Shown: piece after piece, positions 3,442 through 14,047 of the stretch
How the letters are laid out: every line of letters starts with the position of its first letter
How positions within the stretch are numbered: position 1 is the stretch's first letter
Assembly: GCA_945885625.1 (NCBI GenBank)
Contig: CAMCYS010000004.1
Coordinates: forward strand, 17,825-81,824
Direction of reading: 5' to 3'
DNA: 64,000 nucleotides
From: Bifidobacterium breve
GTDB lineage: Bacteria; Actinomycetota; Actinomycetes; Nanopelagicales; Nanopelagicaceae
Position numbers and translations under genes: made by a program
The notes under the pieces: model-generated
Seen by the model: the letters and a program-made list of their open reading frames with translations, nothing else
Databases searched by the model: none
Told to the model about the DNA's origin: nothing

Positions 3442-4713
3442 ATGCCTCAATACAAAGTAGCAATCGTCGGCGCCGGCCCAGCTGGCTACTTTGCTGCGCA
3501 GGCTCTGCAGAATCTGCAAACTGATGAACTTAAGTTCTCGATCGACATGATTGAACGCCTACCAACGCCCTGGGGCTTAGTTCGCAGCGGTGTCGCACCT
3601 GATCATCCAAAGATTAAGACAGTCGCCAAGGTATTCGAGAAAATCGCAACCAGTGATGGCTTTAGCCTTTATGGAAACGTAGAACTTGGGACAGATATTT
3701 CCTTAGAAGTTCTCAAAACAAAGTATGACGCTGTTGTTATCGCTACAGGATCAGCGGTGGGCAGAAAACTTGGTATCCCAGGAGAAGATTTACCTGGCTC
3801 GATCTCAGCTGCTGAGTTTGTGCCTTGGTATAACGGACACCCTGATTTTGCTGGTCACACACCAAATCTAGATTGCGATACCGCAGTTGTAATTGGCGCC
3901 GGTAACGTTGCGATGGATGTTGCGCGTATGTTGGCACTTGAACCAAGTGAACTCGACCCAACTGATACTGCCGATCACGCGATTGATGCGCTACGCAATT
4001 CAAGTATTCGTAAAGTTGTAATTAGCGCTCGTCGTGGCCCTGAACATGCAGCCTTTACTTCACCGGAACTTCGCGATTTACCAAAGTTAGAACACACAAA
4101 TGTTGTAATGCGTGCTTCGGATATTGCTGCAGCACTCGAGCGTGCAGGAGAAGAGCCAGAGAAGGAAGTTCGCAATAACTTAGAAGCCATGCGCCTTATC
4201 TCTGAGCTAGAGCAAGGAAAACACGCTCGCACTATGGAATTTCAATTCCTCAGCACTCCGAAAGAATTTAGGGGTAATGGCAAAGTTGAAGAGGTGGTAT
4301 TTACTACAAGTGCTGGTGAGGAAAAAATTGTTAAATGCGGCTTGGTAATCACTGCTATTGGATATGAAGCCGCCGCCCTTGAAGGCTTGCCATATGAAAG
4401 AGGTAAAGTCTTAAATCAAGATGGCCGTGTATTCGAAAATCTTTATGTAGTTGGCTGGGCAAAGCGTGGGCCATCTGGGGTAATCGGTACGAATAAATCA
4501 GATGCTGCAGATGTTATGAGTTTGTTAATTGCTGACCTCAAAGAACCCAAGCCAAGGATTGAATTCTCATCTTTAATCACAGCGGATAAAGTTATTTCAC
4601 AGAGCCATTGGGAATCAATCAATGCTGCCGAAGTCGCTGCAGGTGAACCTCATGGAAAGCCAAGAATTAAGGCAGTTTCTCGCGAAGAGCTCTTGCGTTT
4701 GGGTGGGCTGTAA
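3442..4713 (+). CDS. Ferredoxin/ferredoxin-NADP reductase (FprA-like, adrenodoxin-reductase family)
   Basis: VAIVGAGPAGYFAAQAL, ERLPTPWGLVRSGVAPDHPKIK, VIGAGNVAMDVARML, GWAKRGPSGVIGTNK. Confidence 0.92.
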   Translation: MPQYKVAIVGAGPAGYFAAQALQNLQTDELKFSIDMIERLPTPWGLVRSGVAPDHPKIKTVAKVFEKIATSDGFSLYGNVELGTDISLEVLKTKYDAVVIATGSAVGRKLGIPGEDLPGSISAAEFVPWYNGHPDFAGHTPNLDCDTAVVIGAGNVAMDVARMLALEPSELDPTDTADHAIDALRNSSIRKVVISARRGPEHAAFTSPELRDLPKLEHTNVVMRASDIAAALERAGEEPEKEVRNNLEAMRLISELEQGKHARTMEFQFLSTPKEFRGNGKVEEVVFTTSAGEEKIVKCGLVITAIGYEAAALEGLPYERGKVLNQDGRVFENLYVVGWAKRGPSGVIGTNKSDAADVMSLLIADLKEPKPRIEFSSLITADKVISQSHWESINAAEVAAGEPHGKPRIKAVSREELLRLGGL

Positions 4714-4741
4714 AAAGCAGGTATCATTACGACTTCGCTAA

Positions 4742-4817
4742 GCGCCCGTAGCTCAACGGATAGAGCATCTGACTACGGATCAGTAGGTTAGGGGTTCGAA
4801 TCCCTTCGGGCGCACCA
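4742..4817 (+). tRNA. tRNA-Arg (anticodon ACG), CCA encoded
   Basis: 7-bp acceptor GCGCCCG/CGGGCGC, D arm GCTC/GAGC, anticodon loop CTACGGA, T arm with TTCGAAT, terminal ACCA. Confidence 0.95.
4772..4815 (+). repeat. Left att repeat (within intact tRNA-Arg)
   Basis: ACTACGGATCAGTAGGTTAGGGGTTCGAATCCCTTCGGGCGCAC, matches 12378-12421 at 43/44. Confidence 0.95.
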
Positions 4818-4870
4818 TTTCAAGCGTAGTTTTTTCTTTTCTTCTTCTCTAAATCCTAGAACTTCGTTCT

Positions 4871-4896
4871 TTTGCTTTCATTTTGCTTTCAACCGT
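4871..4896 (+). repeat. Element-end direct repeat, tandem TTTGCTTTCA pair (candidate integrase arm sites)
   Basis: TTTGCTTTCAtTTTGCTTTCAaCCGT; two decamers 11 bp apart; near copy at 12240-12265. Confidence 0.7.
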
Positions 4897-6028
4897 TCTC
4901 GATAGCCCTTGCGAATAGATCCGCGACTTCTTGCTTCTGCTCGGGGCGAATGTGAGCATAGATTCGAAGAGTCGTAGAGATGTCCGAATGACCGAGTCGA
5001 TCCTTTACTAGATGAACCCCCGCGCCTGAGTTAAGTAGCTCGGTGGCGTGTAGGTGACGGATCGAATGAAGAGATTCAGACCGAAGCCCTAACCTTTTCG
5101 CCGTCTTTTTAAAGAGCTGGTACGGAGTCGAAGGATCTAACGGAAGCCCGTTCTCCTGAGTGAAGATGTAATTCGCTTCTTGCCATAGAGAACCCGCCTT
5201 TATGCGTTCTTCTATCTGCCGTCTCCGGTGATCCTTGATAAGTCGCAGAGTTTCGGAGTCGAGTTGAACGATTCTCTTACCGTCTCCGCCCTTTGTTGAA
5301 TCTTGTTCGATAACCGTTTTCCCTATGCGAGTCCGGTTCTTTGAGATCGAAAGAGTAGCCTTTTCGAAATCAAGGTCACTCCACCGAAGCGCGAGGATCT
5401 CTCCACGTCTTCCGCCCGTGTAGGCAAGAAGTCGGAAGAATGCGAAGAGTCGGTGACTTTTTAACTCTTCGAGTAATTGCTTTAACTCGCTCGAAGTGTA
5501 AGGAGTAACGCTTCTCTTCTTTCCTTTTGGTCGTTCTATTCCTTTTGCCGGATTGAATGCGAGACGCTTATCCTTAACGGCTCGATCTAACCCTTGAGTA
5601 AGAGTGATAGCGATTAGGCGAACGGTACTTTCCGAAAGATCTTGGATAAGTTCGATTAGAACCTTCTCAATTCGTGCCGAAGTTAGATCTTTTAGAAGCT
5701 GAGATCCGAACTTCGGGAGAATGTAGCGATCTAGAATGAAGCGATAGTTCTCAGCCGTGGTCGGCTTGACCTTCGCCCTCTTGATATCCCACCATTCTTC
5801 GAAGTGTTCTTGAACGGTGATCTTCGTAGGGGATACGAAAACACCGTCTCGAGACTCGGATCTCGCCTTATCTCGTGCGCTTTTTGCTTCTTCCTTAGTG
5901 GCAAAGCCGGAGATCCATTTTTGCTTTGAGATACCCGTTTCTGGATCTTTGACTCTGACTATGTAGGAATAGGACGATCCGCGCTTTGCGATACCGTCCT
6001 TTTGCTCTCCTGTTTTATGTCTGCTCAC
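4889..6028 (-). CDS. Tyrosine-type site-specific recombinase / integrase
   Basis: Catalytic-type motifs AYTGGRRGEILALRW, SLHSIRHLHATELL, DRLGHSDISTTLRIYAH; next to att-repeat tRNA. Confidence 0.96.
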   Translation of the reverse strand: MSRHKTGEQKDGIAKRGSSYSYIVRVKDPETGISKQKWISGFATKEEAKSARDKARSESRDGVFVSPTKITVQEHFEEWWDIKRAKVKPTTAENYRFILDRYILPKFGSQLLKDLTSARIEKVLIELIQDLSESTVRLIAITLTQGLDRAVKDKRLAFNPAKGIERPKGKKRSVTPYTSSELKQLLEELKSHRLFAFFRLLAYTGGRRGEILALRWSDLDFEKATLSISKNRTRIGKTVIEQDSTKGGDGKRIVQLDSETLRLIKDHRRRQIEERIKAGSLWQEANYIFTQENGLPLDPSTPYQLFKKTAKRLGLRSESLHSIRHLHATELLNSGAGVHLVKDRLGHSDISTTLRIYAHIRPEQKQEVADLFARAIENG

Positions 6029-7104
6029 TTTTTCTCCTTTCTTGCTTTTGGAGTGGTCTTTCTTCCCGCCTTAGAAGCGGAAACCTTTTGCTTCGCCTTG
6101 TAGTTGCGATTAGGCAGTTTCCTTCTACAAGATAGACCGCAGTATTTATTCTCTTCCTTTACGCGCACCGGTAGGAAAACAGATCCACACACTACGCAAA
6201 CTCTTTTAACCTTCTTGCCTTTAAAATTATTTAAGAGATACGCAGAAAAAGCCGTTTCGAGTCCGGTATTTTCAAGATTGAATCTTCGTACGCCTTCGGT
6301 AGTAACTACGGACTTAGTAATTAGGCTTAAGTGCTTATTCATCACTTGAGAAAAATCTGAGAGCGAACTCTCCGCAAAGTCGAGAACCGGAATCTTTCTT
6401 TTTCCGCCGTAGGTGTAAGTCCATTCCTCATTGACATTGAACTTAGGACTTGCCGGATCTTCTGAGTCTTTGAATGCGCCACCATATCCCTTCCACGCAG
6501 AGACGATTCTCTTTCTATTCTTATCCGTAAGAGAAAGAACTTCATTCTTTTCAAAGTTCGGATCTTCTAAAAGGTTTATGTAGAGACGAGCTGACTTCGC
6601 TAGATCCCTCAAGACTTTCTCGATTAAGTAATAAGGAACTTCGTCTCCGCTACGAATCGCCAAAAGACGATCTAGGAACTTAGGATCTAAAGACTTTCCT
6701 TTATAGAGTTTCTTTGCTTTCGTAGGAGTTAGCTTTGTTAGTCGAGTAATAGCAGGAAGATCTCTTTCGGTCATGACTCGATTTCTGGACTCTATGTCAG
6801 AGATTCCCACTACACCGAATCGGTTTAGGTAAGAAATAACTTTATGAGGATCTATTTCGGGAATGTTATATTCCCCGTGCTTCTTCTTTCCCTTTTCGTC
6901 ATAGACATACTCCATAACCGGAATCAACTTTAGAAGTTCTGTTAGTGCGTCAGAGTCAAAACTTTCTTGAATCTTTGCTTCACCTGAGTATTGAACGAAT
7001 AAATAACCGGATTCGTCCGCATAAATCTTTGCTTCTCTTTTTAGGTACGGAATCTCTGGTAGAAAATAGGAGATTGCTAAGGGAGACTCTTTAGGTGTCT
7101 TCAT
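6025..7104 (-). CDS. Unknown protein with C-terminal CGNR-like zinc finger, overlaps integrase start
   Basis: C-terminus CVVCGSVFLPVRVKEENKYCGLSCRRKLPNRNYK (CxxC...CxxxC plus basic tail); ATG at 7104 (MKTPKES) preferred over ORF start 7137; 4-bp overlap with integrase. Confidence 0.7.
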   Translation of the reverse strand: MKTPKESPLAISYFLPEIPYLKREAKIYADESGYLFVQYSGEAKIQESFDSDALTELLKLIPVMEYVYDEKGKKKHGEYNIPEIDPHKVISYLNRFGVVGISDIESRNRVMTERDLPAITRLTKLTPTKAKKLYKGKSLDPKFLDRLLAIRSGDEVPYYLIEKVLRDLAKSARLYINLLEDPNFEKNEVLSLTDKNRKRIVSAWKGYGGAFKDSEDPASPKFNVNEEWTYTYGGKRKIPVLDFAESSLSDFSQVMNKHLSLITKSVVTTEGVRRFNLENTGLETAFSAYLLNNFKGKKVKRVCVVCGSVFLPVRVKEENKYCGLSCRRKLPNRNYKAKQKVSASKAGRKTTPKARKEKK

Positions 7105-7170
7105 AGGTGAGAGCCTAGCACTACAAGGAACGAACAATCGTTTCTCATATTGTCAGGAACAGGAGACACC

Positions 7171-7365
7171 GTGGAAACTTCAATACTTCCGCAGTTACAC
7201 ACTCTCGTCACCGTAGGAGAAAGAACTTCGCTTTCTCGCTCGGCTCTATACCGCGAGATCAAAGCTGGACGCTTACAGGCTCTCAAAGTGGGAAAAGCCT
7301 TACGCATAAGCGAGAACGAACTTCAACGCTTTATTGCCTCTCTCGAAGCACAAAAGGTCGCATAA
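7171..7365 (+). CDS. Excisionase/AlpA-like helix-turn-helix DNA-binding protein
   Basis: LVTVGERTSLSRSALYREIKAGRLQALKVGKALRISENELQRFIASL is a typical excisionase-family HTH; AGGAGA upstream of GTG at 7171. Confidence 0.85.
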   Translation: METSILPQLHTLVTVGERTSLSRSALYREIKAGRLQALKVGKALRISENELQRFIASLEAQKVA

Positions 7366-7646
7366 TGACAAAAAAGAATGACCCGTTTTTCAACGAGTCA
7401 CCCTATCCGCTTCAAACTTTACACCCATTCTCAAACAATCGAGAACTCACCGAAGTGGAGTGGTTCGCGCTTCGCCTCGCTTCGACAACTCGCTTTCGTA
7501 CAAGCGAACCGAAGTTGATCACAAAGGCTCGATCTCGAATTGCTACGGCAGAGATCGCAAGAGATCACTTAATTAAGAACGGTCTCATTCCGGTATTCGA
7601 CTCCTTCTACTTTGAAGGAATGTTTCTTAAAGGGGCGCGTCCATGA
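7365..7646 (+). CDS. Hypothetical protein of the element
   Basis: ATG overlaps upstream stop by 1 bp and ORF overlaps the next ATG (ATGA); consistent coupled operon. Confidence 0.7.
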   Translation: MTKKNDPFFNESPYPLQTLHPFSNNRELTEVEWFALRLASTTRFRTSEPKLITKARSRIATAEIARDHLIKNGLIPVFDSFYFEGMFLKGARP

Positions 7647-8005
7647 CTATTTACTTAAATCCGACAAAAGAACAAAAAGAAGAGATGGCGCGAAGTATCG
7701 CGCAAAGCAAAATGAAAGAAAATTGGGCACACCTTCTTGAAGTAATTCTTGAAGATTCCACACTTGAAGAGATTCTTGCCTTTGCTTTAAGACTTGATGA
7801 GATTCCACGCTATACGCAAGAAGAAGAACGTGCGCGGAATTGGATTCGTAACGGATACACCTCAAGATATCTTCCTGATAGAGACCTTCCGCGAGGTCAT
7901 GCTGGCTTCCATTGGGAAAAACACACAGAAGAACCCGTCTCGCTTTTAGAACTTCCTCAAGGACTCATTCAGAAAGGCTCTAAATCGTGGAAGATCGAGA
8001 TATAG
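7643..8005 (+). CDS. Hypothetical protein of the element
   Basis: ATGA overlap with upstream ORF, 19-bp overlap with downstream DUF3631-like gene. Confidence 0.7.
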   Translation: MTIYLNPTKEQKEEMARSIAQSKMKENWAHLLEVILEDSTLEEILAFALRLDEIPRYTQEEERARNWIRNGYTSRYLPDRDLPRGHAGFHWEKHTEEPVSLLELPQGLIQKGSKSWKIEI

Positions 8006-9111
8006 GGAATGCGCTTACAGAAACCGAAAACCTTCTTCGGAAGTTAATAGTCCTTAAGTTAGACGCTCACTATTGGGCTTTGACTCTATGGATAGCATTT
8101 TGCTATTCAATACCGCAGTTCGATTACGCCCCGCGTCTTTGCTTTTGGAGTCCGGAGAAGCGTTGCGGAAAGTCATTAGCCTTAGAAGTGGTTTCTCACT
8201 TACTACCGAACCCGCTTATGACTTCCTCTATTTCTTCAGCTTCACTCTTTCGGATACTAGACCGAGACAATTCAAAAGTGATCCTCATAGATGAATCGGA
8301 TACGGTTTTTGGCAGAAATGGAGACAAGGAGAAAGCCGAAGCCCTACGGCAACTCTTGAACGCTTCTTTTAAAAGAGGGCAAAGCGTGATTCGTTGCGAA
8401 CCGCCTAAGTACGAACCGCGAGAGTTCAAGATCTTCGCACCTGTCGCACTTGCTGGAATTGGTACTTCTGCCATTCCTGAGACCGTGGCGGATCGTGCGC
8501 TTATGATCGAAATGAGAAGAATGCTTCCGAACGAACAGATCCTAGAGTTTGAGTCAGACGAAGTGGAGAAATACTTCTTTCCGGTTAAGGAGAAACTACA
8601 AAACTTCGCAACAGAGAATGAATTTAAGTATCGAGAACTTAGACCCGAACTTCCTAGAGAGTCTCTTAATCCGAGGGCGCGTGACCTATGGAAGCCCCTC
8701 TACAAGGTCGCAGAGTGTGCGGGGGAAGAATGGATTAAGAAAGCTCTTCTTGCTTCTGTCGCGCTTTCTTCGGGCGAATCTGATCCGGAAGAAGCGAGTC
8801 TTTCACTCCGACTTCTTTCAGATACTCGAGAAGTATTCCTTGAAGAACAGTTAGCAACTAGAGATTTAATTGACCGCCTCAGATCTCTTGAAGAATCTCC
8901 GTGGGCTTATCTTGAAAGGTTTAATCCTTCTGTACTCGCACACCTACTTAAGAACTACGGAATAAAACCGAAACCCTTTTCAGGCGGAAAAGTTCGAGGC
9001 TACTATCGAAAGAGTTTTGAAGATTCATGGAGTCGCTATCTCGATCCCGCACAGACCGTCACACCCGTCACACCCGTCACACCCGAAGAGTTAGATCTCG
9101 AAGCTTCGTGA
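7987..9111 (+). CDS. DUF3631-like P-loop ATPase (putative replication/helicase-associated protein)
   Basis: LCFWSPEKRCGKSLALEVVSHL (Walker A-like), NSKVILIDESDTVFG (Walker B-like), FAPVALAGIGTSAIPETVADRALMIEMRR typical of DUF3631 proteins. Confidence 0.75.
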   Translation: MEDRDIGNALTETENLLRKLIVLKLDAHYWALTLWIAFCYSIPQFDYAPRLCFWSPEKRCGKSLALEVVSHLLPNPLMTSSISSASLFRILDRDNSKVILIDESDTVFGRNGDKEKAEALRQLLNASFKRGQSVIRCEPPKYEPREFKIFAPVALAGIGTSAIPETVADRALMIEMRRMLPNEQILEFESDEVEKYFFPVKEKLQNFATENEFKYRELRPELPRESLNPRARDLWKPLYKVAECAGEEWIKKALLASVALSSGESDPEEASLSLRLLSDTREVFLEEQLATRDLIDRLRSLEESPWAYLERFNPSVLAHLLKNYGIKPKPFSGGKVRGYYRKSFEDSWSRYLDPAQTVTPVTPVTPEELDLEAS

Positions 9112-9130
9112 CACTCGTGACACTTGTGAC
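9058..9130. repeat. Iteron-like inverted cluster: three GTCAC at 9-bp spacing, then three GTGAC at 9-bp spacing
   Basis: GTCAC at 9058, 9067, 9076; GTGAC at 9108, 9117, 9126. Confidence 0.8.
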
Positions 9131-9162
9131 GCGTAATAGAACACTAGAGAAAGGCTCTAAGT

Positions 9163-9354
9163 ATGGAATCTGAACAGGAGAAACAGATTCGGGAGTTTTG
9201 GGAGTCACTCACGCCCGAATCTTTAGACGATCTTTTGAAAGAGATTACAGAAGCTCCAATTTTTCCGGATTCAAATAAAGTGTCTAAGCCTCGCAGAACT
9301 CGCAAAAAGAATGAGTGGACACAACAGACGCTAGGGGATTTCGATCATTTGTAA
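9163..9354 (+). CDS. Hypothetical small protein
   Basis: 63-aa ORF MESEQEKQIREFWESLTPESLDDLLKEITEAP..., AGAAAGG upstream. Confidence 0.5.
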   Translation: MESEQEKQIREFWESLTPESLDDLLKEITEAPIFPDSNKVSKPRRTRKKNEWTQQTLGDFDHL

Positions 9355-9403
9355 ACTTTATGGACTCAGTAGAAAAGGAAAACTTATAAGGGTTAGATAA
9401 GTG

Positions 9404-9655
9404 TCAGACCCCGTAGTGCGCGCCCTTCCTTCTATGTTTTTCCCGATCCTTATCGGTGTATCTGCTTTCATCTTTATCTATTACAAGGCAAATAATCCAC
9501 GCGACCGCAGGAAATAAAAGACTTAACCAAACAAACCCCACGCGGGAACGACCTGTTCGCGTTGCCACTTGGTATGAGTATCGAGCAAGCAAAATGATCA
9601 AAGTAATCAAGATTATTAAGATTACAAAGCCAAAAAATAAGAGCACGTCTTCCAT
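9404..9655 (-). CDS. Small membrane protein
   Basis: 83 aa, two hydrophobic segments (LFFGFVILIILITLIILLA; VGFVWLSLLFPAVAWIICLVI). Confidence 0.6.
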   Translation of the reverse strand: MEDVLLFFGFVILIILITLIILLARYSYQVATRTGRSRVGFVWLSLLFPAVAWIICLVIDKDESRYTDKDREKHRRKGAHYGV

Positions 9656-9743
9656 GCGCCTAAGAGTACTTTTCTTTATCCCTAACCTCTACCCCTTTGC
9701 TTATTTGTACCTATCTCGCCGATTCAGAGGGGGTTCAAGCCTT

Positions 9744-9779
9744 ATCGGGGAGATGGGGGTAGCCAAGTCACCTAAAAAA
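9744..9779 (-). promoter_or_regulatory. Shared upstream block, left copy
   Basis: Reverse complement TTTTTTAGGTGACTTGGCTACCCC...ATCTCCCCGAT matches 11594-11647; ends 13 bp before the ATG at 9793. Confidence 0.6.
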
Positions 9780-9792
9780 CTTAAGTTAAGGC

Positions 9793-10011
9793 ATGGACAA
9801 AATCAAAAACTACGCAATCGCAATACTCACGGGGCTATTAGTCCTATCGCTATTTACGCAACCAGCTCAAAGCGCACCCGCAAAAAGCAAAGAGGCTAAA
9901 ACTGTGGAATACCAAGCTTGCTTGAATACTTGGCTAGATCAAGCAGTGGTAGAGAATAAAAGCGATTACTTGAATTACTGGATTAAAGCTTGTGCTAGTT
10001 ACCGCCCTTGA
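9793..10011 (+). CDS. Small exported protein
   Basis: Signal-peptide-like MDKIKNYAIAILTGLLVLSLFTQPAQSA; mature part with Cys pair ACLNTWLDQ...IKACASYRP. Confidence 0.65.
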   Translation: MDKIKNYAIAILTGLLVLSLFTQPAQSAPAKSKEAKTVEYQACLNTWLDQAVVENKSDYLNYWIKACASYRP

Positions 10012-10046
10012 TAACTATTTAAGATAAACCGAACTATGATCAAGGT

Positions 10047-10334
10047 ATGGGTTTCTTTCGTAAGAAGCAAGAAGATGATCTCTCTTTGCCAAGAAATAGA
10101 CGGTTAGACCTGAATCCGTCACGCCAAGAACTTGAATGGATAGAAGCTGTTAATTTATGGGAAGACGAATACTGGTCAATTCATAATCAACACGGCTGGA
10201 AGACCATAAAGGGAAAAGGGTTTAGAGAAACCAGTGACAGATTTACGCCTGTCCATTGGAAAGTGGGCGAAGTAACGGTAATTGCTGAGTTTGATTCGAG
10301 ATCCGGAATAGTGACCGAAAGGGTTATTGGCTAA
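10047..10334 (+). CDS. Hypothetical protein
   Basis: 95-aa ORF MGFFRKKQEDDLSLPRNRRLDLNPSRQELEW...; AAGG upstream of ATG. Confidence 0.5.
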   Translation: MGFFRKKQEDDLSLPRNRRLDLNPSRQELEWIEAVNLWEDEYWSIHNQHGWKTIKGKGFRETSDRFTPVHWKVGEVTVIAEFDSRSGIVTERVIG

Positions 10335-10376
10335 GAATATGAAACCCCTTATTTCCGTGTTGGTTGGTCTTTTGGT

Positions 10377-10583
10377 ATGAATACAGATGGTTTTGACGTA
10401 CCTGAAGGCTTTAGTAGTCGCGAAGAGTTCTTGAACCACCAACACCGAGAACAAACACGACTTAATAAAGAACAATTCGAACGAGACTTAGCCGAGACAA
10501 AATCAAATAACTTTGGGATTTTAATGTTCGTAGTAATAATTGCCGTAGTTATTATTGCTGGACTTATGGGTGCTGATGTGTAA
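10377..10583 (+). CDS. Small C-terminally anchored membrane protein
   Basis: 68 aa, charged N-terminal half and single C-terminal TM (FGILMFVVIIAVVIIAGLMG). Confidence 0.55.
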   Translation: MNTDGFDVPEGFSSREEFLNHQHREQTRLNKEQFERDLAETKSNNFGILMFVVIIAVVIIAGLMGADV

Positions 10584-10891
10584 CACCTGTCTAATACTCT
10601 AGGGAATTACTAGGAACGGTATGGGTGTTAAACAGTTTAGGCAGGAATAAATAGACCGACAAACAAGGAAAAAGCCATATATAAACCAACCACGTAAAGA
10701 ATTACCGTGAAGACCTTTTGTGTTGGGGATAACAGAGACCATTTCTGGCCTTGCCACCACTTTCTTTCTCTTGCCATAAGAACAAGGCTACCTTTTTTAG
10801 TAGCCCCAAACACCCCTGACTCACCATGTTTGTTTTTTTCCCTAAAGAATCAAAGCCGGTAGTTTCCCGATCTTGGGCGTATCTTGGGGTC

Positions 10892-11062
10892 ATGAAAATA
10901 CTAGGAATTTGTTTTATTGTCTTTGGCTTGTTCTGGTCTATTGCCGGGTTCTTGGCTTATGCCTCAGATATTCAGTTGGGTATAGCCGTTGGGGGCATAA
11001 ACATGGTCGGACTAGGCATAGTCATGGTAAAACTTTCAGATATGACTTTAACTAAAGAGTAA
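10892..11062 (+). CDS. Small membrane protein
   Basis: MKILGICFIVFGLFWSIAGFLAYASDIQLGIAVGGINMVGLGIVMVKL; internal ATG preferred over ORF start 10826. Confidence 0.5.
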   Translation: MKILGICFIVFGLFWSIAGFLAYASDIQLGIAVGGINMVGLGIVMVKLSDMTLTKE

Positions 11063-11064
11063 AA

Positions 11065-11301
11065 CTATTTCTTAGTAGGAAGAAATTTTCTACATGCGAG
11101 TATGGCTTGCTCCGTATAAGATTCTACGTCGAGGTACGAGCCGAACCTTGAATTTGTTGAGCCACTTACATAGTTCTCTACGCATGTTTGAAAAATGATT
11201 AACTCAGCCTCATCATATTTAATCTCTGGTTCTGAGTTTGCCTGAGAACTACACCCGGTAAGCACTAAAAGTCCAACCAATACGGAAGTAAGCAGCTTCA
11301 T
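11065..11301 (-). CDS. Small lipoprotein
   Basis: Lipobox MKLLTSVLVGLLVLTGCSS; Cys pair FQTCVENYV...AILACRKFLP similar to that of 9793-10011. Confidence 0.65.
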   Translation of the reverse strand: MKLLTSVLVGLLVLTGCSSQANSEPEIKYDEAELIIFQTCVENYVSGSTNSRFGSYLDVESYTEQAILACRKFLPTKK

Positions 11302-11336
11302 ATTCTTAGCCTAATTCGTTTTATCTGAGACAAGCG

Positions 11337-11579
11337 TTAGGGATATAGGTCTTCGCACGTGTCTCTTGCCTCGCCATTAACTTCAACAATCGAGCACTCA
11401 CGGGTTGGTTTAGGTGGCGAAAATCCGGTGGGGTCTGAAATGAAAATTGCCCCCATTACAATTCCTGTTAAGGCAATAATCGCTACCCATAGAGAAAGAA
11501 TAAAACGGCCGACTATTGCCATGGGGCTCTTGCTCGCTGAATAACTTTCACCTTTAAGCCAGCTCACCCATTTCTTCAT
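11337..11579 (-). CDS. Small membrane protein with extracytoplasmic Cys pair
   Basis: One TM (FILSLWVAIIALTGIVMGAIFI) then CSIVEVNGEARDTCEDLYP. Confidence 0.55.
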   Translation of the reverse strand: MKKWVSWLKGESYSASKSPMAIVGRFILSLWVAIIALTGIVMGAIFISDPTGFSPPKPTRECSIVEVNGEARDTCEDLYP

Positions 11580-11593
11580 ACGCGTATTCTATT

Positions 11594-11647
11594 TTTTTTA
11601 GGTGATATGGCTACCCCTGCTGCCTTTCCTGTCTTTATCTCCCCGAT
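11594..11647 (+). promoter_or_regulatory. Shared upstream block, right copy
   Basis: TTTTTTAGGTGATATGGCTACCCC...ATCTCCCCGAT; ends 14 bp before the minus-strand ATG at 11579. Confidence 0.6.
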
Positions 11648-11744
11648 TCGTTCAAGCTTGATCCTTTTCCCTACGGCTTCAAGCCGATCTCGTAGGGTTG
11701 AAGTTATTTACCCGCCATTCCTAAACGCGTCACTATGGGGGCGT

Positions 11745-11798
11745 CAAGGTCGGTGGTTAGTAGTTTTATCAGGCTTGGGTAACTAACCCCTGACCTTG
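11745..11798. other. Long intergenic hairpin
   Basis: CAAGGTCGGtGGTTAGT / ACTAACCcCTGACCTTG: 16 bp paired (one G-U) with one mismatch, 20-nt loop. Confidence 0.75.
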
Positions 11799-11894
11799 CT
11801 TTGTCGGGGATAAGTTGGACAAAAAGGCAGCGGGGGTAGACGCCAAGGGTAAAAGAAAGGTTTAATTACCTTTCTAACCAACCAAGGGGGAAAA

Positions 11895-12161
11895 GTGGAC
11901 AAGATTACTGAAGGCGAAAAAGCCAACAAATTGGCAATGGCAATTTCTACTGAAGTTAGCAAAGGTTGGCGCGTAGAAAGTCAATCGCAAGTCCAAGCCG
12001 TATTGGTTAAGGGCAAAAACATCAACCACACACTTCAGATTTTTCTAAGTGTAATTACAGTTGGATTTTGGCTATTGGTTTATGTGCCAACCTTCATTGT
12101 CAACCGCAGACAAACGAAAATTGTAAGAGTGGACGATTTCGGCAACACCTTATTCGAATAA
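11895..12161 (+). CDS. Small membrane protein (GWRVESQSQVQAVLVKGK... type)
   Basis: AAGGGGG upstream of GTG; soluble N-terminus then hydrophobic segment LQIFLSVITVGFWLLVYVPTFIV. Confidence 0.65.
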   Translation: MDKITEGEKANKLAMAISTEVSKGWRVESQSQVQAVLVKGKNINHTLQIFLSVITVGFWLLVYVPTFIVNRRQTKIVRVDDFGNTLFE

Positions 12162-12239
12162 ATATTTACTTAGTTTGCCAAGGTTTATTCGGACTTCTTC
12201 TACCCTTTGAAGTATTTCAAGGCAAGACTTTTGGCTAGC

Positions 12240-12265
12240 TTTGCTTTCAATTTGCTTTCACCCGT
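12240..12265 (+). repeat. Element-end direct repeat, tandem TTTGCTTTCA pair (candidate integrase arm sites)
   Basis: TTTGCTTTCAaTTTGCTTTCAcCCGT; same 11-bp spacing and orientation as 4871-4896. Confidence 0.7.
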
Positions 12266-12377
12266 ACAGATAGCGCAAGAGATCACTAGGTACAAAGAGA
12301 ACACTTTTACGCTTAAAGCAAGCAAAAGAACGAAGTAGTAGAAACTTAGAGACACGCTTAGATAGGCGTAAGGCAAA

Positions 12378-12421
12378 ACTACGGATCAGAAGGTTAGGGG
12401 TTCGAATCCCTTCGGGCGCAC
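12378..12421 (+). repeat. Right att repeat (displaced tRNA-Arg 3' fragment)
   Basis: ACTACGGATCAGAAGGTTAGGGGTTCGAATCCCTTCGGGCGCAC; only difference is A12390 versus T4784. Confidence 0.95.
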
Positions 12422-12514
12422 ACAGTATTTTCTTGATTAAATAAATTGCCCTCAAGTTCTAGTGAGTGAAACTTTGCCATTGACGCAACCTGCTTCACGC
12501 GTAACGCTAGGCAC

Positions 12515-14047
12515 ATGAAGATCACCCGGCATTATCTCGATGTTAATGGACGCCGCGTTCACTATCGAAAGTGCGGGAGTGGTCCGACTTTGATTATGGT
12601 TCATCAGAGTCCAAGATCTTCAGCGGAATATGAAAAATTGATGCTCAAATGGGGTACATCATTTACTTGTATTGCTCCTGACTCCCCTGGCTATGGCCAA
12701 TCTGAACCACTTCGAATAACTTCACCCGACATTAATGATTTTGGTGATGGCTTAATCGAATTCTTAGATGTTCTAGGTGTTAAAGAAGTTGGTATGTATG
12801 GCTTTCACTCTGGTGGAGCTATCGCCATGAATGCCCATGTTCGAAATCCAGGTCGCTTTACCGCACTTGCATGCGGTGGTTATCCAATTTGGACAGATGC
12901 TGAAATGGCTCTTTATGCCAGCGGATATTTACCTTCCTTTAAACCAACTGGATATGGTGAACATTTAACTTGGGTCTGGTCACGCATTCTTGAGCAGAGT
13001 TGGTTTTTCCCGTGGTTTAAGACAGAAGAGTCAACCCGTATGCGCAACGCCCACGATGATATTGCGCGCGTGAATGCTCAAGTTTTAGAACTACTAGATG
13101 CTGGTGATAACTACCAACATGGTTATCGCGCGGTGTTATCTGCCCCCAGTGATATTCCTGCGGCTGCCTCAAAACATAATCCGGTTTTGATTGCGACCTA
13201 TCAAGGTGACCCGCTTCTAATTCACATTGATCGCTTGCCGGCACTGCCAGCAGGCTGGAGCACTGGAAGTGCTGAAAATCCAGCAGCACTGGAAGATTTA
13301 TTCGGCGATTTCCTAAAGAAATATCCAGGCCCTAGCTACGAATCCTTTAATGCAGATACCGATCGTGGTTTCGTCTCTGTGGAAACCGCGCACTTTAATG
13401 GGGTTATTCAATGGAGTGGTGATTCAAATGCCTCAAAGTTAACCCTTCATAATGTTGGGGAATCGAGTGAACTAGTTAAAGCTGAGCAGGCTTTGGTAAT
13501 TGATCTGCCGGGGCATGGTCTATCGAGTGACATCAGTGATGCAGCAACGCTTGCAGATTGGGCCGATGTAATTAAGAGTGCAATTACCAACCTTGGTGCT
13601 AAAAATATTACCTGTGTTGAAGGTGACCAGCTATCTGCTCTGCTTGCGCTGGCAATAGCTAAATCCGTAGGTGCTGATTGCGTTTGCGCAATCAATGCTC
13701 ACATTCCGAAAGATGGTGAGAACTGGCAGTCATCGCAAGCTGATCTAACACCCGATCGTTTTGGAAGCCATTTGAACAAAGCGTGGCAAGTAGTTCGTGC
13801 TACTCAATTCTTTTGGCCTTGGTTTGAAGCGAAGAACTCAAATGTAATTGCTTTTGATAAGAGTCAGATAGATCCAGAGTATTTAGCGTTAGCTCATCGC
13901 GCCTTATTGCGAGCACGATCACGTGAGAAATTAACAGCTCTACTGTTAAGCGTTGATAAAGCGCAATTAGTTGCTGATGCACCAAAGATTACTGGTTGGC
14001 ACATAGCTGACTGGGCAAGAAAGCGCGACGATATCTGGCGGCCATAA
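12515..14047 (+). CDS. Alpha/beta hydrolase with two hydrolase-like halves
   Basis: RRVHYRKCGSGPTLIMVHQSPRSSAEY, GMYGFHSGGAIAMN nucleophile elbow; second half re-uses DLPGHGLSSD and FFWPWFEAKN. Confidence 0.8.
   Translation: MKITRHYLDVNGRRVHYRKCGSGPTLIMVHQSPRSSAEYEKLMLKWGTSFTCIAPDSPGYGQSEPLRITSPDINDFGDGLIEFLDVLGVKEVGMYGFHSGGAIAMNAHVRNPGRFTALACGGYPIWTDAEMALYASGYLPSFKPTGYGEHLTWVWSRILEQSWFFPWFKTEESTRMRNAHDDIARVNAQVLELLDAGDNYQHGYRAVLSAPSDIPAAASKHNPVLIATYQGDPLLIHIDRLPALPAGWSTGSAENPAALEDLFGDFLKKYPGPSYESFNADTDRGFVSVETAHFNGVIQWSGDSNASKLTLHNVGESSELVKAEQALVIDLPGHGLSSDISDAATLADWADVIKSAITNLGAKNITCVEGDQLSALLALAIAKSVGADCVCAINAHIPKDGENWQSSQADLTPDRFGSHLNKAWQVVRATQFFWPWFEAKNSNVIAFDKSQIDPEYLALAHRALLRARSREKLTALLLSVDKAQLVADAPKITGWHIADWARKRDDIWRP

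Follow-up and report, generated by a model that had tools for sequence, protein, structure and literature searches.

A tRNA-Arg-integrated element of a Nanopelagicales bacterium is a probable phage satellite with a cos-like motif of ~16-kb actinophages

What kind of mobile element occupies the tRNA-Arg(ACG) gene in the window, that is, the whole 64,000-nucleotide stretch of contig CAMCYS010000004.1 that was analysed? The host is a freshwater actinobacterium of the order Nanopelagicales, and its genus was taken as Ca. Planktophila or a very near one. A preliminary description of the sequence had outlined a 7.6-kb element and had named a satellite with surface cargo as one option. This option proved the best supported, through a cos site common to the element and to phages, and the element is probably an integrative phage satellite of the cos type. 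Not all of the description stood, as the label 'CGNR-like' for one protein found no support; the iterons, the cos-like motif and the related elements reported here were absent from it. Genomes and loci used for comparison are cited by working labels (G and L).

The element was bounded by two 44-bp direct repeats with a spacing of 7606 bp. The preliminary description had read these repeats as att sites, and the match of 43 of 44 bases and the position of the left copy inside the tRNA gene bear this out.

4742-4817, plus strand: tRNA-Arg(ACG), the integration target (ARAGORN; Rfam RF00005)
4772-4815, plus strand: attL, the 3' part of tRNA-Arg(ACG) (repeat search)
12378-12421, plus strand: attR, 43 of 44 bases identical to 4772-4815
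4871-4896, no strand: candidate left integrase arm site, 26 bp, 92% identical to 12240-12265, kept in a mini-element of G233
12240-12265, no strand: candidate right integrase arm site (repeat search); the right end, 12240-12425, is 97% identical in G233

Judged by their sequence and position, the two 26-bp repeats may serve as arm sites of the integrase. The excised junction, built in silico from 4601-4815 and 12422-12620, aligned to G250 at 385 of 414 positions, ungapped and over its full length. G250 and the window also agreed in their flanking genes, an fprA-like gene upstream and a hydrolase downstream. The ungapped alignment therefore identifies the element as an insertion and G250 as an empty site, which the preliminary description had proposed to look for in relatives.

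The cargo region of the element contained a motif of ~60 bp in two full copies, one of them partly degenerate, and one deleted copy. It was discovered as a repeat common to the regions upstream of the cargo genes c2 and c7 (listed below).

11592-11647, plus strand: cosA, putative cos site as in phage (model R1, 58.4 bits, matching 11590-11650 on the minus strand; phage cos alignment), predicted cut near 11627/11628
11803-11854, minus strand: cosB, second putative copy, partly degenerate (R1, 46.8 bits), the same variant as the single copy of G233, predicted cut near 11822/11823
9744-9779, minus strand: cosC, putative copy with a deletion across the cut region (R1, 20.7 bits; alignment)

Strong matches in the host's own genome lay inside this element only (2 exact hits in 1.44 Mb). 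A scan of 135 genomes with R1 gave 11 strong places with E below 1e-6: two in the window, two on phage contigs of G220, and one each in the G233 mini-element, in G177 by a homologue of cargo gene c8, and in G197, G252, G256, G180 and G236. The G197 copy was located in a tRNA-Thr element. Complete elements held the copies of G252 (44-bp tRNA-Lys repeats 9.07 kb apart) and G256 (49-bp tRNA-Leu repeats 7.9 kb apart). The motif of G180 was a remnant beside a truncated integrase at tRNA-Gly and that of G236 lay in a glycan-gene region. The elements carrying the motif differed in their integrases and replication genes.

Phage cos sites adjoining HNH and terminase genes are well established. On the G220 phage contigs, an HNH gene ended in the motif, and the genes of the terminase large subunit and portal came directly after. 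This terminase had 529 relatives in IMG/VR. Model R2, trained on the motif copies of bacterial genomes only and on no phage sequence, matched all 29 phage contigs that reached at least 130 bp upstream of the terminase, at one place each and with E-values down to 3e-15. Of the phage contigs that end near the site, 29 of 49 broke off within the motif, right after CTGTCTTT and 79-81 bp upstream of the terminase start, and 12 of the 22 contigs coming from the other side ended 1-6 nt after it. The phage form of the motif was found on 109 viral contigs and overlapped the HNH gene in each of them (109/109). The terminase followed directly on 87; no terminase was near on the remaining 22, for 12 of them since the contig stops within 6 nt. 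A phage contig of 16,048 bp carried the site at both ends, which places the phage genome at ~16 kb. Because of the R2 matches, the contig ends inside the motif and its position at the HNH-terminase junction, the ~60-bp motif is very likely a cos site. The ~16-kb genome and this conserved cos inside the HNH 3' end characterise a large group of uncultivated actinophages in IMG/VR (L217-L405).

One frame of cosA reads FLGDMATPAAFPVFISPIRSS, resembling the C-terminus of the phage HNH protein, FLGKKSTPPVFPSFISPTRSK. As cosA can still be read in this way, a phage is suggested as the source from which the satellite acquired it. Those window proteins that were tested against 189 viral loci had no relative there, whereas the G252 integrase gave one hit.

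The left part of the element was occupied by genes for integration and replication.

4889-6028, minus strand: tyrosine integrase, 379 amino acids (Phage_integrase PF00589, 4e-28; Arm-DNA-bind_4; SAM_3; PHROG 1, 2e-77)
6025-7104, minus strand: zinc-knuckle protein of the integrase operon (open reading frame (ORF) with a C-terminal CxxC...YCxxxC knuckle)
7150-7365, plus strand: xis-like winged-helix protein (HTH_17, 3e-7; PHROG excisionase, 8e-6)
7365-7646, plus strand: orf of the replication operon (overlapping ORFs)
7643-8005, plus strand: orf of the replication operon (overlapping ORFs)
7987-9111, plus strand: RepAM-type (DUF3631) P-loop ATPase, predicted replication initiator/helicase (PF12307, 4e-36)
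9056-9134, no strand: candidate replication origin with 9-bp iterons, three CCGTCACAC in the end of rep and three inverted (9108-9134)

The integrase, xis-like and DUF3631-like genes of the preliminary description were thus confirmed by family matches. For the protein at 6025-7104 the knuckle was seen, and searches of Pfam and NCBIfam gave no family match to uphold the CGNR label; genes at the equivalent position were present in L046 and L048. Relatives of the integrase (41-43%) were located at tRNA-Thr, -Val and -Asn in G197, the elements of which also held relatives of the xis-like protein (54-56%). In viral contigs, the integrase was matched at only 23%, apart from a single short fragment at 49%.

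DUF3631 is RepAM, the replication protein of pMEA300, an actinomycete integrative and conjugative element (AICE; PMC3218068). The domain was present in 3 of 296 genomes of the order vs 39 of 296 in a class-wide sample. Direct scans of viral and genome collections with the rep protein of the window found no relatives, and a PDB search with RepAM gave chance hits only. In RepAM homologues, a P-loop xExxxGK[ST] preceded hhDExDT by 47-50 residues in 20 of the 23 proteins having the latter. The closest complete plasmid relative, a 14-kb Streptomyces plasmid, carried RepAM beside xis and integrase together with TraA/TraB, and also an orf overlapping rep like that at 7643-8005. The best 9-bp periodic array lay 0-330 bp 3' of the DUF3631 domain in 19 of 31 loci, compared with 1-7 of 31 for periods of 5-8 and 10-15 bp. 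Array scores of at least 17/20 were reached at 11 loci for the 9-bp period vs 0-2 for other periods. Across actinobacteria (L117-L145), iteron arrays of the form CCGYNMC plus two bases stood on either strand directly behind DUF3631/RepAM genes. As the arrays occur on either strand and encode different residues, they are DNA features. The rolling-circle role that the literature predicts for RepAM would agree less well with the P-loop and the iterons than an ATPase-driven origin would. With int, xis, rep, iterons and no virion genes, the anatomy of the element fits a satellite.

The right part contained small cargo ORFs.

9163-9354, plus strand: small soluble ORF (ORF call)
9404-9655, minus strand: c1, protein with two transmembrane (TM) segments (78% over 65 amino acids in the G252 tRNA-Lys element, E 5e-34)
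9793-10011, plus strand: c2, exported two-Cys protein (43% in the G131 tRNA-Arg element)
10047-10334, plus strand: c3, soluble protein (35% in the G252 tRNA-Lys element, 1e-7)
10339-10380, plus strand: fragment MKPLISVLVGLLV followed by a stop, copy of the start of gene 11065-11301 (inverted repeat I1, translation)
10377-10583, plus strand: c4, protein with C-terminal TM segment (hydrophobicity)
10637-10813, minus strand: c4b, possible TM protein, weakly supported (ORF, hydrophobicity)
10892-11062, plus strand: c5, two-TM protein (hydrophobicity)
11065-11301, minus strand: c6, lipoprotein of the two-Cys family of c2 (alignment; 36% in the G252 element, 2e-4)
11337-11579, minus strand: c7, one-TM protein (hydrophobicity)
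11895-12161, plus strand: c8, membrane protein of a Streptomyces-phage family (PHROG 34413, 4e-20; Streptomyces phages, 38%)

A strongly hydrophobic segment was present in 8 of the 9 small cargo ORFs tested vs 17 of 111 spurious nested ORFs. The envelope bias noticed in the preliminary description was thereby substantiated, and it recurs in most other tRNA-Arg insertions. Family searches of the element matched no capsid, conjugation, toxin or resistance family, in agreement with that description, and PADLOC also returned no match. Coding conservation, proposed there as a check, was found in c8 (vs its 88% homologue in G177: nonsynonymous divergence dN 0.093, synonymous divergence dS 1.68, dN/dS 0.055) and c1 (dN 0.065, dS 0.41, dN/dS 0.16). 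These two testable cargo genes are under purifying selection. Five cargo ORFs (c1, c2, c3, c6 and c8) had homologues in other mobile-element contexts of the genus or family, and c2 and c6 aligned as one exported two-Cys family. Judged by these homologues, the cargo is a shared pool, because they occur in elements with other integrases and replication genes, such as that of G252 with a primase/helicase pair in place of RepAM. The fragment at 10339-10380, which repeats the opening codons of the lipoprotein gene in inverted orientation up to a stop, is a trace of gene turnover in the cargo.

Tycheposons of marine picocyanobacteria are tRNA-integrated cargo elements of streamlined plankton. In the genus studied here, att-flanked insertions of 0.7-7.4 kb were found at tRNA-Arg(ACG) in G131, G148, G253, G220, G233, G244, G176, G196, G194, G256 and G201, and G054, of another genus of the family, also had one. 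This tRNA gene is an integration hotspot in the genus. The site of the window element was occupied by a different 6.3-kb insertion in G220 and by one of 0.7 kb in G222. Cargo of the tRNA-Arg insertions consisted mostly of signal-peptide or membrane proteins; the exceptions included a methyltransferase in G244 and oxidoreductases in G256. The first unit of G233 (L051:831-1529) measured 655 bp from att to att and matched 4742-4946, 11788-11837 and 12240-12425 of the window at 96-97%. It had neither integrase nor rep, encoded a single 82-amino-acid zinc-ribbon membrane protein and carried the cosB variant of the window element. It is an internally deleted, non-autonomous derivative. It was followed in L051 by a second att unit of 1.3 kb with an exported protein.

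Further features recurred at these sites. Many secreted tRNA-Arg cargo proteins ended in a tail like ITCxKGKxTKKVTxVxPKCPxGYKKK (L078, L079, L081, L082, L051, L053), possibly a surface-sorting tail of the group. A different recombinase of ~250 amino acids, shortened to 200 in G148, uses this tRNA-Arg site too, its gene following the tRNA immediately and on its strand (L054, L079, L081). Large proteins with repeated treble-clef zinc motifs recurred in tRNA-integrated elements of the genus (L050, L054, L081, L214).

As in cos-type phage satellites, att-site integration with an own integrase, a helper-like cos sequence and the absence of virion structural genes were found together in the element. 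It resembles cos-type phage-inducible chromosomal islands (PICIs), namely the cos-type Staphylococcus aureus pathogenicity islands and proteobacterial PICIs, in its fixed integration site, integrase and excision factor, helper-like cos and lack of virion genes, and in an own replication ATPase with an iteron origin, which is predicted for the element. The use of cos by such satellites was described in PMC10690885, and in the helper an HNH nuclease acts with terminase, according to the passage of PMC10803314 that cites Quiles-Puchalt 2014. Unlike these islands, the element has a RepAM module instead of Pri/Rep, several cos copies and a freshwater actinobacterial host. No stl, ppi, rpp or capsid-size gene was recognised in it, and its matches included no family of a classical PICI regulator, of Pri-Rep or of ppi/cpm/rpp/terS morphogenesis genes. 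With the phage-inducible chromosomal minimalist islands (PICMIs) of Vibrionaceae (PMC10803314), it has in common a size of about 6-8 kb, a minimal core of integrase, regulator and replication genes and no capsid remodelling. PICMI DNA is packaged as a concatemer filling the helper head (PMC10803314), as may be the case for the element. In contrast, PICMIs integrate by fis with an int-alpA-prim core, have no identified cos site and carry genes unrelated to those of the element, which sits at tRNA-Arg with RepAM and had no primase match. The Streptomyces satellites MulchRoom and MiniFlayer are linked to actinophages, as the element would be, but encode their own capsid and terminase genes (PMC10690885), whereas the element encodes none.

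The genes for integration and replication also recall RepAM AICEs of the pMEA300 type (PMC3218068), which share the tyrosine integrase, xis, RepAM/DUF3631 and tRNA att site. The element could then be a tra-less AICE or an integrative mobilizable element, conjugation being helped in trans, with the cos copies as accidental phage scraps. Its replication protein is that of AICEs, the names remnant and mobilizable integrating element are in use for AICE-like elements that lack tra or rep (PMC3218068), and TraA/TraB lie near the same rep-xis-int order in the closest complete plasmid relative. However, the element carries a phage cos, family searches found no tra, relaxase or FtsK-type gene, and no ORF matched an FtsK/SpoIIIE-type Tra protein. 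Accident does not account for the presence of the motif in further elements whose integrases and replication genes differ, and an element of this kind is unlikely. It is considerably less probable still that the element is what decay has left of a prophage from the 16-kb phage group. The common cos site and the c8 homologues in Streptomyces phages speak for this; no virion gene is left, the viral loci have essentially nothing else in common with the element, and independent elements at four tRNAs follow the same reduced plan. It is equally improbable that the motif regulates cargo genes in cis, as a leader or promoter, instead of serving as a packaging site. The motif does lie directly upstream of c2, c7 and c8 in the window, and in G177 and G180 it precedes the gene of a small membrane protein, but it is placed differently relative to genes in G197 and G275, and in phages it lies inside the HNH 3' end before the terminase, with contigs ending inside it. 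An RNA leader was tried, gave no Rfam match, weak z-scores and no covariation, and was dropped after the phage contig ends fell inside the motif.

Several points weigh against a cos-type satellite. No packaged copy was found in IMG/VR, where c1 relatives were absent and c8 had one 76-kb contig only; relatives of the rep protein were likewise absent from the viral collection scanned. Two opposite full cos copies ~200 bp apart together with a deleted one are unusual, and one or more of them may be dead. No capsid-remodelling or terminase-redirecting gene was recognisable in the element. The helper's host would follow from phage contigs binned in one metagenome-assembled genome (G220), and binning is fallible.

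As a cos-type satellite, the element would be excised as a circle by Xis and Int upon infection by a ~16-kb phage, the presumed helper. RepAM would replicate the element from the 9-bp iterons, to which it would bind at the 3' end of rep. The phage terminase and its HNH partner could then cut the satellite cos, filling phage particles with satellite DNA, presumably as dimers, since two copies of 7.6 kb make 15.2 kb, which is close to the capacity of a 16-kb head. In a new host, the circle would integrate at tRNA-Arg. The small membrane and lipoprotein cargo may be a host-protecting load, for instance by blocking rival phages at the envelope. More tentatively, and with considerable doubt, Nanopelagicales might harbour a diverse group of cos satellites whose cos/HNH end was taken from ~16-kb actinophages. 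These would be packaged as dimers that fill the head, and would exchange a pool of small envelope proteins by which rival phages are excluded; integrase-free att-cos-att minicassettes, down to 0.66 kb in G233, would be carried along in trans.

The acI/Nanopelagicales belong to the most abundant bacteria of fresh water; they have no CRISPR, and phages of theirs have been isolated only recently (PMC10202952); no report of phage satellites in this group was found in the literature searched. The 9-bp iteron array behind DUF3631 genes provides a predicted origin for the RepAM family and, together with the P-loop, calls into question the published prediction of RepAM as a rolling-circle initiator. 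Through the cos that the element has in common with a widespread group of uncultivated phages, sequence alone connects host, satellite and probable helper, and the system becomes testable via virion DNA ends. Such cos satellites would offer a route for the spread of envelope genes in streamlined plankton.

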